A stretch of DNA of 64,000 nt. Origin: Enterocloster clostridioformis (GTDB taxonomy: Bacteria > Bacillota > Clostridia > Lachnospirales > Lachnospiraceae). The stretch spans positions 1,984,001 to 2,048,000 of the forward strand of contig NZ_JAIWZC010000001.1 of NCBI RefSeq assembly GCF_020297485.1. Reading direction: 5' to 3'. Under the pieces are notes generated by a model. It saw nothing but the letters and a program-made list of their open reading frames with translations. It was not told the DNA's origin and ran no database searches. Both the position numbers and the translations under genes were made by a program. Each line of letters starts with the position of its first letter. Position 1 is the stretch's first letter. Shown here piece by piece: positions 303 to 59,120 of this stretch.

Positions 303-1538
303 TCATCCTTCCCGGCTGCCGTCCAGCAGCGCCGCTATCTCCGGAAATGGTTCCACGCTCCGCCTCAATATCCCATGTATGTAAGCAATGGTTATGCCAT
401 AGTTGGTCATGGGAATTCCCTGGTCCTGAGCGCATTTCATTCTATATTTCATCTCACGCTCATTCAGCATGCATCCGCCGCAATGGACAATCAGATGATA
501 GCCAGCCAGTTCATCCGGAAACTCCGTACCTGAGGTAAACACAAACTCCGGTTCTGTTCCGGTATACTCCCGTATCCACTTGGGCAGCTTTACGGTCCCG
601 ATATCTTCGCACTGCCTGTGATGGGTGCAGCCCTCAGAAATCAGGATTCTGTCTCCCTTTCTGATGCTGTCCAGAGCCCTGACGCCCTGCACCATGGGCT
701 CCAGACTGCCTTTATAGCGGGCAAAGAGAATGGAAAAGGAAGTCAGGAGAATATCCTCCGGCGTATCTGCACTGACCTTAGCAAATACCTGACTGTCGGT
801 GATGACCATTCTGGGCTTCTTCTCCAGAGATGCCAGCGTGTCCTTCAGTCCGTTTTCCCTGACCACCACGGACACTGCATCCGCTTCCAGGATGTCGCGT
901 ATGGTCTGCTGCTGGGGCAGAATCAGGCGTCCCTTGGGAGCCGCCTTGTCAATGGGTACCACCAGTACGGCCAGATCCGATGGAGAAAGCAAATCTCCCA
1001 CGATTTTGCGGCTGTTCTCCTGGGTCCTGCCCAGCTGCGCCAGACACTCCTTCAGCGCCGCAATACCCTGACCGGTATGGGCGCTGACAGACAGGACGGG
1101 AACCGAGTCAGGAATCCCCTCCGGTCTCTGACCGGAAATTCCGTCCAAATCCGCCTTGTTGCAGACCGCCACGCAGGGAATCTGTTTTTCCCCTATCTTC
1201 TCCAGGAGGGCATAGTCCTCCGAAGCCGGGCCGTGACAGACATCCATCACCAGCACAGCCACGTCTGTCTTGTTTAGTACCTGATAGCTCTTCCTCACCC
1301 TCAGGCTTCCCAACTGGCCCTCATCGTCAATGCCGGGCGTGTCAATCATCATCACAGGGCCCAGAGGCAGCAGCTCCATGGCCTTATAAACAGGGTCCGT
1401 AGTGGTTCCCTTCACGTCCGACACCACAGCCAGATCCTGGCCCGTGACCGCGTTCAGCACGCTGGATTTGCCGGCGTTTCTCCTTCCAAAAAATCCAATA
1501 TGTATCCGGTCCGATGCCGGCGTATTGTTCATTCCCAT
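303..1538 (-). CDS. hydF: [FeFe]-hydrogenase maturation GTPase HydF
   Basis: HydF is the scaffold GTPase on which the di-iron subcluster of the [FeFe]-hydrogenase H-cluster is assembled before transfer to HydA. The N-terminal G domain shows the P-loop GRRNAGKS, then DTPG and NKAD. The C-terminal domain carries the cluster ligands CTHHRQC and HCGGC. The length (411 aa) is normal. I chose the ATG at 1538 (MGMNNTP) because GAGGAG lies 9 nt upstream; the ATG two codons earlier is too close to that site. It follows hydG by 24 bp and is the last gene of the TM1266-hydG-hydF operon. HydE and the hydrogenase itself are not in this window. Confidence 0.96.
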   Translation of the reverse strand: MGMNNTPASDRIHIGFFGRRNAGKSSVLNAVTGQDLAVVSDVKGTTTDPVYKAMELLPLGPVMMIDTPGIDDEGQLGSLRVRKSYQVLNKTDVAVLVMDVCHGPASEDYALLEKIGEKQIPCVAVCNKADLDGISGQRPEGIPDSVPVLSVSAHTGQGIAALKECLAQLGRTQENSRKIVGDLLSPSDLAVLVVPIDKAAPKGRLILPQQQTIRDILEADAVSVVVRENGLKDTLASLEKKPRMVITDSQVFAKVSADTPEDILLTSFSILFARYKGSLEPMVQGVRALDSIRKGDRILISEGCTHHRQCEDIGTVKLPKWIREYTGTEPEFVFTSGTEFPDELAGYHLIVHCGGCMLNEREMKYRMKCAQDQGIPMTNYGITIAYIHGILRRSVEPFPEIAALLDGSREG

Positions 1539-1562
1539 GGTCATCCGCTCCTCTTCCCCTGT

Positions 1563-2984
1563 TTAAAATCTGAAATCCCTGACGCCCTGTTCAATCTTTA
1601 CCAGGTTATCCCTGACAATCTGGCGCACCTTCTCCTTTGGTATGCTTCCGATTTCCTTCTCTATGAGCGCCTCGCCGATGCGCCTTGTCTCCTCAGAACT
1701 GTAATCCATGAGATATTCCTTCAGCGTCATGAGAGCATTGGGATGGCAGCAGTTTTGAATCTGCCCGCTCTTGCACAGGGACATGAAACGGTCGCCTGTG
1801 CGCCCTTCCCTGTAGCAGGCCGTACAGAAGCTGGGAATATATCCCATACCCATGAGCCAGTTCACTACCTGGTCCAGGGTACGGTTGTCGCTTACATCGA
1901 ACTGGGCCGAACATTCATCCTCAGGCTCAGGTTCAAAGTAGCCGCCCACGCTTGTCTTGGAGCCGCCGCTGATTTGGGAAATGCCCAGGTGCAGCACCCG
2001 TTCCCTGGTTTTCTGGCTCTCTCTTGTGGAAACAATCATGCCTGTGTAGGGAACCGCGATTCGAATACAGGCAACCAGCTTGGCGAAGGTGTCGTCATCG
2101 ATTCCATTGTCAAAGGAATCCGGGTCAATGTCATCCGCCCTTCGTATCCTGGGCACGCTGATGGTATGGGGTCCCACCCCGAACACTGCCTCCAGATGCT
2201 CCGCGTGCATCAGAAGTCCCGCAAATTCATACCGGTAAAGCTCCAGGCCAAACAGCACGCCGCAGCCCACGTCGTCAATACCGCCCATTTGGGCACGGTC
2301 CATCGCCTCTGTGTGGTAACAGTAATCATGCTTTGGCCCTGTGGGATGAAGCTTTTCATAGCTTTCCTTATGATATGTCTCCTGGAACAGGATATATGTA
2401 CCGATTCCCGCGTCCTTAAGCTTCCTGTAATTCTCCACCGTGGTGGCCGCTATGTTCACGTTGACGCGGCGTATGGCGCCGTTTTTATGCTTTATGCTGT
2501 AAATGGTGTCAATGGACTCCAGCATGTATTCAATGGGATTGTGCACCGGGTCCTCCCCTGTTTCAAGGGCCAGGCGCTTATGCCCCATATCCTGCAGCGC
2601 CATAACCTCCCTGCGGATTTCATCCTGGGTCAGCTTCTTCCTTGGGATATGTTTGTTCTTGGCGTGGTAGGGACAGTACACACACCCATTGATACAGTAA
2701 TTGGACAGGTACAGGGGCGCAAACAGCACAATGCGGTTTCCGTAGAAATCCCTTTTAATCTGTTCCGCCAGCTCATAAATCTCCTGGTTCTTGTCCTCCA
2801 GTCCGCAGTCCAGAAGCACCATGGCCTCCCTGTGGGTCAGCCCCCTGCGCTCCCTGGCCTTTGCCAGAATCTCGTCAATCAGTTCCCTGTTTGTGCTGTT
2901 TGCCTCCCCGTAGGCAAGGGTCTCCTCAATTTCCCCGTGGTGAATGAATTCCTCTGCACGGGATGATTTTAGGTCGTAATTCAT
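1563..2984 (-). CDS. hydG: [FeFe]-hydrogenase maturase, radical SAM tyrosine lyase HydG
   Basis: HydG cleaves tyrosine to p-cresol, CO and cyanide, and delivers an Fe(CO)2(CN) synthon for the hydrogenase H-cluster. The radical SAM motif CINGCVYC (CX3CX2C) is present in the first third. The C-terminal CTAC followed 22 residues later by another Cys is the CX2CX22C motif of the auxiliary cluster that separates HydG from ThiH. The length of 473 aa is typical. The start has AAAGGAGAGG just upstream. It sits between the TM1266-family gene and hydF in one minus-strand operon. A 488-codon antisense ORF covers it but is a shadow. Confidence 0.97.
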   Translation of the reverse strand: MNYDLKSSRAEEFIHHGEIEETLAYGEANSTNRELIDEILAKARERRGLTHREAMVLLDCGLEDKNQEIYELAEQIKRDFYGNRIVLFAPLYLSNYCINGCVYCPYHAKNKHIPRKKLTQDEIRREVMALQDMGHKRLALETGEDPVHNPIEYMLESIDTIYSIKHKNGAIRRVNVNIAATTVENYRKLKDAGIGTYILFQETYHKESYEKLHPTGPKHDYCYHTEAMDRAQMGGIDDVGCGVLFGLELYRYEFAGLLMHAEHLEAVFGVGPHTISVPRIRRADDIDPDSFDNGIDDDTFAKLVACIRIAVPYTGMIVSTRESQKTRERVLHLGISQISGGSKTSVGGYFEPEPEDECSAQFDVSDNRTLDQVVNWLMGMGYIPSFCTACYREGRTGDRFMSLCKSGQIQNCCHPNALMTLKEYLMDYSSEETRRIGEALIEKEIGSIPKEKVRQIVRDNLVKIEQGVRDFRF

Positions 2985-3074: not shown

Positions 3075-3326
3075 TCAACTACCGATATTGGAGTACAGGG
3101 CCTTGGAGTTAACGCCCTGAAGCCTGCCCAGTTTGCCGGACAGGGCGCTTATGATGTCCTGGGGCGCATCCACCACAACGCTTATAATGTTAACCTTTTT
3201 CTTTTCATAGGGAAGCCCCATCCTCCCAATGATGTACTGACCGTATTGGTGGAGCAGATCGTTGACGCTTTCCACCGCATCCTTATTTTCCACTATTATG
3301 CCGATTACCGCGATTCTTGTCTCCAT
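3075..3326 (-). CDS. TM1266-family iron-only hydrogenase system putative regulator
   Basis: An 83-residue ACT-like small protein (starts METRIAVIGIIVENKDAVE, with RMGLPYEKKKVNIISVVVDA in the middle). Genes of this family are found beside hydEFG in anaerobes and are named putative regulators of the iron-only hydrogenase system; the biochemical role is not settled. The start has GGGAGG 6 nt upstream. It is the first gene of the operon with hydG (90 bp gap) and hydF. Its start codon lies only 21 bp after an intrinsic terminator, so expression probably depends on read-through of the leader described at 3347-3547. Confidence 0.85.
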   Translation of the reverse strand: METRIAVIGIIVENKDAVESVNDLLHQYGQYIIGRMGLPYEKKKVNIISVVVDAPQDIISALSGKLGRLQGVNSKALYSNIGS

Positions 3327-3346: not shown

Positions 3347-3547
3347 AAAAAAGGATACGCCAAAAAGGCGTATCCTGAACATACTGTCATATCTGTGTCC
3401 CCGCCTTCCCCTTCAGCCTTGCTTCAGGTCAGTCAATCACATATCCTGATATGGGATTTGCTGCCGTCTCTTTGCTGTAAGGCCCTGGCCGTAAGACAGG
3501 CCTGTCAGCGCAGATACCGGTACCATGTACCGTGGCGCACATCCGTT
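3347..3547 (-). ncRNA. Structured ~200-nt leader RNA with a terminator ahead of the hydrogenase-maturation operon
   Basis: Transcription from the promoter at 3554-3582 would make a ~220-nt leader. It ends in an intrinsic terminator (9-bp stem 3353-3361/3367-3375, A5 loop, then six T), immediately before the ribosome binding site of the TM1266-family gene. Inside are strong hairpins: CGGTAC-ATG-GTACCG (about 3520-3534) and CATAT-CAGG-ATATG (about 3440-3455). The 5' segment at 3534-3544 (RNA GGAUGUGCGCC) can pair with the 3' arm of the terminator (GGCGUAUCC), giving a mutually exclusive antiterminator. This is riboswitch or attenuator architecture. I do not recognise the class; T-box, cobalamin, TPP, SAM and glycine consensus sequences are absent. 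Confidence 0.6.
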
Positions 3548-3553
3548 TTTCTT

Positions 3554-3582
3554 ATCTTACTACAGGCCAGGGGGACTGTCAA
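3554..3582 (-). promoter_or_regulatory. Consensus promoter of the TM1266-hydG-hydF operon
   Basis: Minus-strand TTGACA (3577-3582) and TAAGAT (3554-3559) are separated by exactly 17 bp. It starts 17 bp after the stop of the upstream permease gene, so the hydrogenase operon is transcribed on its own with a ~220-nt leader. Confidence 0.75.
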
Positions 3583-35960: not shown

Positions 35961-37806
35961 ATCGAGTAGGAGGAAGGCGATTATTTCGCCTTCCGACCTC
36001 TCACACCACCGTACGTACCGTTCGGTATACGGCGGTTCAATCAACTTAACATGTAACAGCCTTTTCGGCGTAGTAGTCTTCCATGGATACAAGACCAAAC
36101 TTAGCTAGTCTCTCTTTACTGATACAAATGTGGAGATTCCAGCTTCTGCACACTCTGGCATATCCTTTGGCATATGAAATGCCATGTGCCGCATTTGGCG
36201 GCAGACCAAGTTTGATAAGATTCTTTTCCCTGTTCTTTGGCGTTTTCCAGTGTTTCCATATGCACATGCGCAGTCGATACCGAATCTGTCCGTCCATTTT
36301 TGCGCACAGCCTTTTCATGCTTCCGATTTTGAAATAATTTATCCACCCTCGGATAAGCCGGTTGAGTTTCCCAATTTTATAACCATTGCCCACTCCCCAG
36401 CTCCTGCTTGTATATTTCTTCATCTGCGCCTTGAACTTTGCTGCCGCTTTCGGGTGTGGTCTGGCTTTGTACCCTTTGGCAAATGAGTCATAGTAAAATC
36501 CAAACCCCAGATACTTAATGCCCTTTGGTTTATCAACCCTGCTCTTTTCCGCGTTCACTTTCAGTCCAAGCTTTTCCTCTATAAACCGAGCCACGCTCTT
36601 CATTACCCGCTCTGCCGCCTGTCTGCTCCCGACCATTATAATAAGGTCATCTGCATACCGGACGAAATCCAGCCTCCTTGCTTCCAGTTCTTTGTCCAGC
36701 TCATTTAACATGATATTTGCTAACAGCGGCGAGATATTTCCACCCTGCGGTGTGCCGACTACCGTATCTTCATACTCATCATCAATCATTACGCCGCTGA
36801 CCAGAATCTTTCTTACCACCGATATGACATCTCCGTCCTTTATTGTCCGTCCGAAAATCGTCATCAGCTTGTCATGGTCTACTGTGTCAAAGAATTTCGC
36901 TAGGTCGATATCCACTATCCAGTTGTGTCCGTCATTCATCATTTCCAATGCTTTAAGGACTGCCTGCTGTGCACACCGCTTGGGTCTGAATCCATAGCTG
37001 TGGTCGTGAAACTGCTCCTCAAATATCGGGGTAAGCACCTGTGCCACCGCCTGCTGTACAAAGCGGTCTACTGCTGTTGGCACTCCAAGATTTCTTGTAC
37101 CACCATCGGGTTTGGGTATCTCCACCCTGCGGACTGGCTTCGGCTTATACTTCCTCGTCCGCAACTGTTCCTTAATGTTTTCGCCGTTTTCCGAAAGATA
37201 TGCGCCAAGTTCTTCAACGGTCATCCCGTCCACGCCTGCCGCTCCTTTATTCCTTACGACTTGCAGATACGCCGCATTTAGATTATCCCTGCTTAATATC
37301 TGCTCCATGAGACTGCTTGTGTCCATGCGTTGTTTCCTTTCTGCCCCTTTTGCCTTTGCCGCCTTTGAAGTCATCGACAGGCGTATGCTCCGGCTACGAA
37401 GTGGAACGTACTTCAACTGATTGATTGTTCAGCCCTTCGCTCCGTCCCCATTACAGGAACTTCCTCACTACTATGGCTTCTGCTGACTTCTCACAATTCG
37501 TTGTTACTACGGCTAATGAGACCGCCTGTGAGACCTCCCCAGTTAAGGTGCGTGTTCTTTTCCTCCATGTACCTGCCGCATTTACTCGTACTTCCGGCAA
37601 CCTTTTGGACTTCAGTGCCTTTTGCCACCTTATCCGTATTTCCGAGCCTTATATGCGGTTCCTGTCCGTCAGGTCAGAGGTTTGCTTACAGCTTCTTTCA
37701 GATTCCGTCTCACGGCGGACACCCTTGCTGTTCGGCTATGTGCTTCGTTGTTGCCTACGCGCACTTGGGACTTTCACCCATTAGAAAACGCCCATGCTGG
37801 GCAAAC
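35961..37806 (-). mobile_element. Group II intron inserted behind the glycine riboswitch terminator
   Basis: The 5' end GTTTGCCCAGCATGGGCG (37806 downwards) and the early GGGTGAAAGTCCC are group II domain I sequences. Domain IV carries the reverse transcriptase ORF. Domain V is the hairpin around 35999-36040 with a GAAC tetraloop (TACC-GAAC-GGTA), and domain VI is the GGAAGGCGA/TCGCCTTCC hairpin, ending CTACTCGAT at 35961. The intron starts directly after the T-tract of an intrinsic terminator, the target preference of group IIC introns. The encoded protein has no endonuclease domain. Region 37327-37806 holds the RNA domains only. Confidence 0.85.
36046..37326 (-). CDS. ltrA: Group II intron reverse transcriptase/maturase
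   Basis: 426 aa. Reverse transcriptase blocks are clear: RNKGAAGVDGMTVEEL, SYGFRPKRCAQQAVLKAL, GTPQGGNISPLLANIMLNEL and the catalytic YADD. The maturase domain follows (RLIRGWINYFKIG). No HNH endonuclease is present at the C-terminus. The start at 37326 is chosen for its AAGGA site 8 nt upstream; the frame is open for 30 further codons. It is likely functional for intron splicing and mobility. Confidence 0.93.
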   Translation of the reverse strand: MDTSSLMEQILSRDNLNAAYLQVVRNKGAAGVDGMTVEELGAYLSENGENIKEQLRTRKYKPKPVRRVEIPKPDGGTRNLGVPTAVDRFVQQAVAQVLTPIFEEQFHDHSYGFRPKRCAQQAVLKALEMMNDGHNWIVDIDLAKFFDTVDHDKLMTIFGRTIKDGDVISVVRKILVSGVMIDDEYEDTVVGTPQGGNISPLLANIMLNELDKELEARRLDFVRYADDLIIMVGSRQAAERVMKSVARFIEEKLGLKVNAEKSRVDKPKGIKYLGFGFYYDSFAKGYKARPHPKAAAKFKAQMKKYTSRSWGVGNGYKIGKLNRLIRGWINYFKIGSMKRLCAKMDGQIRYRLRMCIWKHWKTPKNREKNLIKLGLPPNAAHGISYAKGYARVCRSWNLHICISKERLAKFGLVSMEDYYAEKAVTC

Positions 37807-37839: not shown

Positions 37840-37975
37840 TCTGTCTTTGTACCTGAAAGATTTGGCTTCGTCGGTGCTATCGCTTTCCAGAGTTTCGTCC
37901 AGTATCCGGTTCTTTTGCCTGAGAGTTCTTCGCTTCCCCTTCGGCGCTGCCTGTGCAGTCTCTCCCGAATCCATC
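37838..37975 (-). ncRNA. Tandem glycine riboswitch (gcvT motif)
   Basis: Minus-strand sequence shows two glycine aptamers in tandem. The first has GGGAGAGAC, GCGCCGAAGGGG and ACTCTCAGGCAAAAG; the second has ACTCTGGAAAG, CACCGACGAAGC and TCTTTCAGGTACAAAGACAG. These are the conserved blocks of the gcvT RNA. In this family glycine binding turns on the glycine cleavage operon. Here a terminator follows immediately, and then a group II intron, so the link to the downstream glyA/gcv remnants is interrupted unless the intron splices out. Confidence 0.92.
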
Positions 37976-38038
37976 ATCCGATTATATAAATTTATCAACA
38001 AAAGCATTTATATCAGTTCTGCTTTGTGCTATTTTCAT

Positions 38039-56267: not shown

Positions 56268-56410
56268 GACAATTCCTCCTTAAAATGATTGTAATGAACA
56301 AAGCACGGACGACCCTAAGGAAGGAGGGCTGCTTACACCAAATCGGTGCGACTGGACTACCTACCAGTTCTGCAAGGTTGCCTTGCGTTGTGTTTTTATC
56401 TTTGCCACAG
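56268..56410 (-). ncRNA. yjdF riboswitch, copy 1
   Basis: The minus-strand leader upstream of yjdF copy 1 aligns along its length with the leader at 58978-59120. Conserved parts include CACCGATTTGGTG, ACTGGTAGGTAGTCCAGT and a GC-AAGG/CCUU-GC hairpin. The two copies differ by paired changes in that hairpin. The known yjdF-motif RNA sits in exactly this position and senses azaaromatic compounds. Regions 56411-56531 and the flanks show nothing else. Confidence 0.8.
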
Positions 56411-58977: not shown

Positions 58978-59120
58978 GACAATTCCTCCTTGAAAATTGT
59001 AATGCACAAAGAACGGACGACCCAAGGAGGGAGGGCTACTTACACCAAATCGGTGCGACTGGACTACCTACCAGTTCTACAAGATTACCTCGCGTTGTGT
59101 TTTTATCTTTGCTCCTATAT
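58978..59120 (-). ncRNA. yjdF riboswitch, copy 2
   Basis: This leader of yjdF copy 2 aligns with copy 1 (56268-56410). The hairpin CGAGG-UAA-UCUUG here corresponds to CAAGG-CAA-CCUUG in copy 1, so bases on both sides of the stem differ but pairing is kept. Stems CACCGATTTGGTG and ACTGG/CCAGT are identical in both. Position directly upstream of yjdF identifies the yjdF-motif RNA. Region 59121-59315 has only a short membrane-peptide frame fragment (IFGLGTVTAAFIGILVMILI). Confidence 0.8.

Follow-up and report, generated by a model that had tools for sequence, protein, structure and literature searches.

A conserved attenuator-type leader RNA before hydrogenase-maturation genes of Clostridia, with TM1266 as its candidate regulator

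The TM1266–hydG–hydF operon of Enterocloster clostridioformis is preceded by a leader RNA that we regard, with high confidence, as a conserved cis-regulatory attenuator. Our somewhat favored reading is that it belongs to a new family of OFF-type transcription attenuators of the hydrogenase-maturation operon, bound by TM1266, perhaps together with an effector. Support is good for the RNA and for its layout; TM1266 as the binder, the sign of control and the signal are inferred. In the window, the whole stretch of 64,000 nucleotides analyzed here, the minus strand carries in order a promoter, a ~200-nt leader, a terminator, TM1266, hydG and hydF:

3577..3582, minus strand: −35 box TTGACA (promoter-site search).
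3554..3559, minus strand: −10 box TAAGAT (promoter-site search), at 17-nt spacing from TTGACA.
3347..3547, minus strand: predicted leader transcript, with its start placed from the promoter; fold z −3.4.
3470..3513, minus strand: module A, an upstream hairpin of like layout to module B, also seen in the free fold.
3397..3437, minus strand: module B, the conserved core hairpin, sole match of covariance model R2 in the window; its helices covary.
3432-3429 and 3408-3405, minus strand: CUGA and RAAG of module B.
3428-3426/3412-3410 and 3423-3421/3417-3415, minus strand: P1 and P2 of module B.
3402..3409, minus strand: predicted antiterminator strand GGAAGGCG, the 3′ strand of the core hairpin (fold cut before the terminator 3′ arm).
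3363..3370, minus strand: its predicted partner CGCCUUUU, terminator 5′ arm and loop (same fold).
3347..3376, minus strand: intrinsic terminator of 10 bp (3376..3352) with a 5-nt loop UUUUU, then U6.
3075..3326, minus strand: TM1266-family gene, 83 aa, candidate regulator (TIGR03959 118.9 bits, PF21699).
1563..2984, minus strand: hydG (TIGR03955 933.9 bits).
303..1544, minus strand: hydF (TIGR03918 566.2 bits).

TM1266, HydG and HydF all exceed their NCBIfam cut-offs. The consensus promoter TTGACA-17-TAAGAT named in the original prediction is present at 3582..3554, and TTGACA-17/18-TAAGAT also occurs in L009–L013; the terminator announced before TM1266–hydG–hydF is likewise in place with that gene order, its helix measuring 10 bp where a perfect 9 bp had been given. 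On site counts alone, promoter and terminator are each unremarkable (3 promoter-like sites in 750 bases vs 0.8 expected; 1 terminator-like site vs 0.8). The leader as a whole is structured, as proposed: its fold is 3.4 sd more stable than dinucleotide shuffles, with 0/200 shuffles as good. An ordinary leader without regulation, its terminator belonging to the upstream transcript, would fit the ~0.8 terminator-like sites expected per 750 bases, but conservation, covariation, and strand and position bias (below) leave this reading virtually no credence.

No known RNA class fits the leader, in agreement with the original prediction. Rfam 15 returned no family at or near its gathering score, and 6S RNA is not among the three matches listed up to E 10 for the window. 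Matches at permissive E in the leaders of the window and its relatives were at chance level only. Among 7 + 13 relatives, no passing match fell within the motif; those above cut-off were tRNAs and one Clostridiales-1 RNA, all outside it. The azaaromatic (yjdF) and glycine riboswitches of the window are likewise structured RNAs of the same genome, but they lie at other loci and, unlike the leader, give clear Rfam matches. The two azaaromatic riboswitches (56289-56409 and 58997-59116, minus strand; 56 and 66 bits) are 2.6 kb apart. Also on the minus strand, the glycine riboswitch (37897-37977) stands immediately upstream of group II intron matches, to D1–D4 (37432-37719) and to the 3′ domain ~1.4 kb further (35961-36037); an intron may lie behind this riboswitch.

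The conserved portion of the leader is a ~40-nt hairpin, CUGA-P1-RA-AG...CU-GA-P1′-RAAG. Its strands are nearly identical in pattern (5′-CUGA-NNNC-RA-AG and 5′-CU-GA-GNNN-RA-AG) and make up a helix of near two-fold symmetry, interrupted by two tandem-purine loops, in the order CU:AG, GA/RA loop, covarying pairs, RA/GA loop, AG(G):(C)CU. P1 generally comprises four covarying pairs, three in the window. CU:AG is nearly invariant, so covariation is neutral on its pairing. The window's own copy, outside the sequences of the R2 model, is a weak match to it (16.0 bits, E 0.055 in 64 kb), with no other match up to E 10. Module A follows the pattern CU-GC-GCUG-AC-AGGCCU...AGGGCCU-UA-CAGC-AA-AG, with internal-loop bases that differ from those of module B. 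A descriptor devised after viewing the same leaders found it in 9/14 of the genus/3-bp set vs 0/140 shuffles; its P1 changes from GCUG:CAGC to GCCG:CGGC and, in L069, to GUCA:UGAC. Scans outside the genus set gave few matches (1/50 and 2/46).

BLAST against 17 genomes of the genus matched the whole leader strongly in G004, G012 and G011 and partially in G007 and G009, with no match in the others. In a wider search, the whole leader as BLAST query matched 5/397 genomes including its own, the other four matches spanning 22–30 nt only and taken as chance. A short motif, CUGA-NNN-RA-AG..CU-GA-NNN-RAAG, recurs in most of the other TM1266 leaders of the genus, whose remaining leader sequence is different or missing. 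The motif was not found in L040 and L041, TM1266 loci of the same genus with a promoter-like TTGACA...TAGTACCATAGTGTCAT; these possibly have another type of control. A descriptor that requires the helices matched 28/99 TM1266 leaders vs 1.7% of mononucleotide shuffles. Searches had supplied 39 of these 99 loci and another 60 were fetched, to the exclusion of 46 weaker TM1266 places.

A covariance model, R1, was built from 15 leaders. Its matches adjoining relevant genes were collected by hand into alignment A4 (50 loci, 51 rows), with matches inside unrelated reading frames omitted, and A4 yielded covariance model R2 and a sequence-only control model, R3. A MAFFT alignment mixing 3-bp and 4-bp forms of P1 (A1) was out of register and was excluded from the models. 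Seeding from TM1266 leaders biases the models towards TM1266-linked copies.

P1 and P2 covary strongly, including at sites placed by the sequence-only model. The original prediction had proposed to look for covariation upstream of TM1266-family genes. A4 holds standard pairs in 94.3% of cells vs 66.1% with shuffled partners (covariation score 0.796 vs 0.256), and a slid-structure control reached at most 51.1% paired. Because R1 rewards pairing, the test was repeated on class-wide loci placed by sequence alone. R3 at E 0.5 hit 41/46 of these loci at the R2 site, in the correct orientation, with no other matches, and the resulting alignment of loci outside the models (A6) was paired in 92.1% of cells vs 70.7% shuffled; the 46 loci were first found by R2, so some bias remains. 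Two further alignments gave 95.6% vs 75.8% (A5, for the 3-bp form that the window shares with its relatives) and 96.6% vs 72.3% (A8).

R2 at E 0.05 matched in 79 of 391 Clostridia genomes, with ~20 chance matches expected. We inspected the 49 best class-wide matches (29 + 20, leaving aside one already in the model): 46/49 adjoin TM1266, hydE, hydG, aspA or ABC-transporter genes and span 25 families of Clostridia, and the other three (L241, L285 and L292) lie inside unrelated reading frames. The conservation sought by the original prediction extends well beyond Lachnospiraceae, and neither this check nor the Rfam one refuted it. In the window's own family, loci with relevant genes, hydF included, account for 13/13 strong, 11/20 weaker and 9/20 weak matches; the remaining weaker and weak ones are mostly within reading frames. 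Off-target matches, mostly in long reading frames, were taken as chance (L148, L150, L202, L204, L206, L208 and L214–L218), as were L259, L266, L267, L269–L274, L276, L278, L285, L292 and L241; ~25 off-target matches would be expected by chance at E 0.1 in 250 genomes. Loci fetched by TM1266 protein alone were also scanned with R2 (E 0.1). Among the best 80 of 238, 41 loci gave 44 matches, none of them off the TM1266 strand; 38 precede TM1266, and the other 6 stand immediately before hydG. This set may overlap the earlier ones (at least L343, judging by its length, is apparently on the same contig as a model member).

The aspA product exceeds the NCBIfam cut-off for aspartate ammonia-lyase, and PMC11736057 describes aspA as a member of hyd operons. 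The RNA-linked transporters are an SsuA/NMT1-like ABC system and a FecCD system (PF01032), and the RNA precedes such operons in genomes where the hydG search found none (e.g. G035, G047). In L301 (G047:C21, hydG not found in the genome) the RNA is followed by an SsuA-like lipoprotein, a diguanylate cyclase, a fused permease-ATPase and TM1266; a dehydratase-activator assignment for the 1111-aa protein of this locus was rejected, the protein being the diguanylate cyclase. L302 (G549:C7) has RNA–TM1266–FecCD permease-ATPase, then NifH-family (PF00142) and nitrogenase-component-1 (PF00148) proteins and a lipoprotein. Two RNA copies stand 1.4 kb apart in L193/L275 (G150:C4), the second directly before TM1266 and a lipoprotein. 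The hairpin is also present in L321, a record titled Spirochaetaceae MAG, where it stands directly before hydG, and in L355 of the cultured Desulfosporosinus hippei DSM 8344. Upstream of hydE in the window's own genome lies a weak copy (L054:1942-1981, 11.1 bits, E 1.4; G000:C1 near 3971467). It has a terminator partner of its own (−13.7 kcal/mol), but by eye there is hardly any pairing in its P1, and we treat this copy as tentative. After this hairpin, within L054:1942-2210, comes a short frame whose beginning (MLNIAVYGKGGI) resembles that of the NifH-type protein of L302 and which then stops.

The 3′ strand of the core hairpin can pair with the 5′ arm and loop of the terminator. In the window, 3409-3402 pairs with 3370-3363 over 8 bp (−11.8 kcal/mol), and these 8 bp exclude CU:AG. 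Terminators were recognized in 37/46 class leaders, 38/50 model leaders and 14/14 of the genus set, and in each set the strand on average prefers its own terminator to swapped ones: −12.3 vs −9.1 kcal/mol in the class set (0/5000 permutations as good), −13.0 vs −10.1 in the model set (0/5000) and −11.3 vs −9.0 in the genus set (3/5000). The genus-set median rank is unremarkable because close relatives share terminators. Taken individually, 10/37 class leaders place their own terminator in the best 5%, and pairing is poor in L058, L062 and L065. By eye, the pairing in L246, L256 and L257 covers part of P1′ and so excludes the closed hairpin. The core lies 14–223 nt from the terminator in 36/37 class leaders with a recognized terminator and 3 nt in the other. 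Since antiterminator and closed hairpin share bases, the closed hairpin would go with the terminator and hence with OFF. In 6 loci with the hairpin directly before hydG, its 3′ strand extends into the ribosome-binding site of that gene, whose start follows immediately, an overlap consistent with binding as shut-off.

The original prediction had drawn the switch differently, with the 5′ segment (3534-3544) pairing with the terminator 3′ arm. That complementarity exists: 3533-3544 reaches −14.2 kcal/mol (−19.1 including the U tail), a value matched by 13/500 mononucleotide-shuffled leaders, and three close relatives give −10.4 to −14.2. Six other genus leaders give an overlapping range of −7.6 to −12.7, however; some leaders with module B have a minimal 5′ region or none (L043, L044, L058); and the pairing with class-wide support is instead that of the core 3′ strand with the 5′ arm. 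We therefore attach very little credence to the leader 5′ end as the antiterminator, although it may contribute an extra pairing.

Co-occurrence was counted in a family set of 250 genomes, with the RNA called at E 2e-4 and TM1266 absence judged by one query at E 0.001. The RNA is present in 31/73 genomes with TM1266 and hydG and in 17/57 with TM1266 only, vs 0/40 with hydG only and 0/80 with neither; within hydG-positive genomes, the RNA–TM1266 association has a Fisher value of 9e-8. At E 1e-3 a single match enters the last group (G233, inside a reading frame). Weaker R2 matches exist in 7/40 hydG-only genomes (E 0.0018–0.25), those in G186 and G203 falling within reading frames and the other five at E 0.036–0.25. 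Class-wide, 46/46 RNA-positive loci are in TM1266-bearing genomes (39 seen in the locus, 7 by genome search), vs 51/70 in a random draw of genomes without an RNA match (p 4e-5), 5/70 of which have hydG without TM1266. By these counts, TM1266 is a better guide to the presence of the RNA than the hydrogenase is. Conversely, the 51 class genomes just named and 82/130 TM1266-positive family genomes (RNA at E 2e-4) carry TM1266 with no RNA detected; missed divergent copies or other TM1266 roles might account for them. The predicted tie to hydrogenase maturation holds in that the RNA sits beside those genes, but it needs widening, since the RNA also precedes transporter operons in genomes with no hydG found and follows TM1266 more closely.

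The prediction of a riboswitch or attenuator layout is borne out as to an attenuator-type leader; as the RNA tracks TM1266 and precedes transporter operons in genomes with no hydG found, control by a protein is no less likely than a metabolite riboswitch. The latter is the main rival. The direct ligand of the core would then be an ion or small molecule, such as an H-cluster precursor, an iron–sulfur related signal or a transporter substrate, and TM1266, as a protein of the same pathway, would give a similar pattern. Terminator-controlled riboswitches such as THF-II and HMP-PP combine a compact core, covarying helices and an alternative pairing with the terminator or ribosome site. The leader shows the same combination: compact internal loops with fixed bases, a conserved structured core with covariation, and an expression platform at terminator and ribosome site. 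The co-regulated ABC transporters (SsuA/NMT1-like, FecCD) are usual riboswitch company. Moreover, the RNA persists where TM1266 is broken or distant: in G004 (L009, about 1430–1480) TM1266 has an internal deletion, yet the leader is still 95% identical, and G007 and G009 keep the RNA with only a distant TM1266 paralogue, the G007 leader directly preceding hydF. On the other hand, the leader differs from such riboswitches in lacking an Rfam match and in going together with a protein gene: 0/40 hydG-positive genomes without TM1266 carry the RNA, a rule that a free-standing aptamer need not obey. Its core is also a short two-fold-symmetric helix with no branched pocket. We judge direct ligand binding possible but rather doubtful.

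Of the genes seen, only TM1266 recurs in all three operon kinds (hydrogenase, SsuA-like, FecCD), although not all loci carry it. TM1266 is put forward on co-occurrence, and the regulator might instead be another RNA-binding protein, with TM1266 traveling along in the operons; given the spread of TM1266 over all three kinds, we hold this very unlikely. The protein is a sequence relative of solved structure 2nzc, named a hypothetical protein, and we know of no report of RNA binding by its family.

With the RNA family, its helices, gene company, alternative pairing and TM1266 co-occurrence established, our preferred reading of an OFF-type attenuator would work as follows. In the unbound leader, the 3′ strand of the core hairpin would pair with the terminator 5′ arm, and RNA polymerase would read through. 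A bound core hairpin would stay closed with its 3′ strand unavailable, the terminator would form, and TM1266–hydG–hydF would remain untranscribed. The most likely binder would be TM1266 itself, alone or with an effector in the manner of PyrR, and TM1266 would be the first gene of the operon it represses.

In PyrR systems, the regulator gene stands first in the operon, and sites lie before and between operon genes. The present arrangement is alike in layout: the candidate binder is encoded in an operon that has sites ahead of its genes and between them. It is also alike in its anti-antiterminator hairpin logic, where mutual exclusion is read from shared bases; PMC4347634 describes PyrR as OFF control in which a protein-stabilized anti-antiterminator allows the terminator. 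The RNA differs from that of PyrR systems in sequence and, with its two tandem-purine loops and two-fold symmetry, in shape; protein family and genes differ as well, and the operon-coded candidate is the TIGR03959/PF21699 protein, not PyrR itself. The Bgl/Sac-type RAT, a 23–30 nt hairpin near the terminator (PMC4347634), is likewise close to its terminator, but it overlaps and blocks it (ON), whereas here the core lies upstream without such overlap and its closing would favor the terminator.

More tentatively, TM1266 may found a novel type of attenuation protein that acts by binding RNA. A dimer or tetramer might sit on the two-fold-symmetric tandem-GA helix, sense the state of H-cluster assembly or a transporter-imported small molecule, and shut its targets either through the terminator or by masking the ribosome-binding site of hydG; a single RNA code might then serve hydrogenase, SsuA-like, FecCD and one nitrogenase-like cluster of Clostridia.

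H-cluster maturation is chemically well studied, and a 2017 survey reportedly listed 224 candidate RNAs. Among the titles and abstract starts listed by searches of open-access literature, none describes the present RNA, and no open-access paper was found on a regulator of H-cluster maturation genes. The words hydrogenase, hydG, hydE and hydF are absent from the main text of PMC11109978, PMC8632094, PMC6429828, PMC2864571 and PMC2965389. An uncatalogued RNA that 25 families of Clostridia carry next to maturation genes or transporters offers a testable handle on the regulation of the maturation genes, with the linked transporters as a route to the signal. It also brings a proposed function for TM1266, annotated only as a putative regulator, and may help in raising or cutting hydrogen production in gut and industrial Clostridia.
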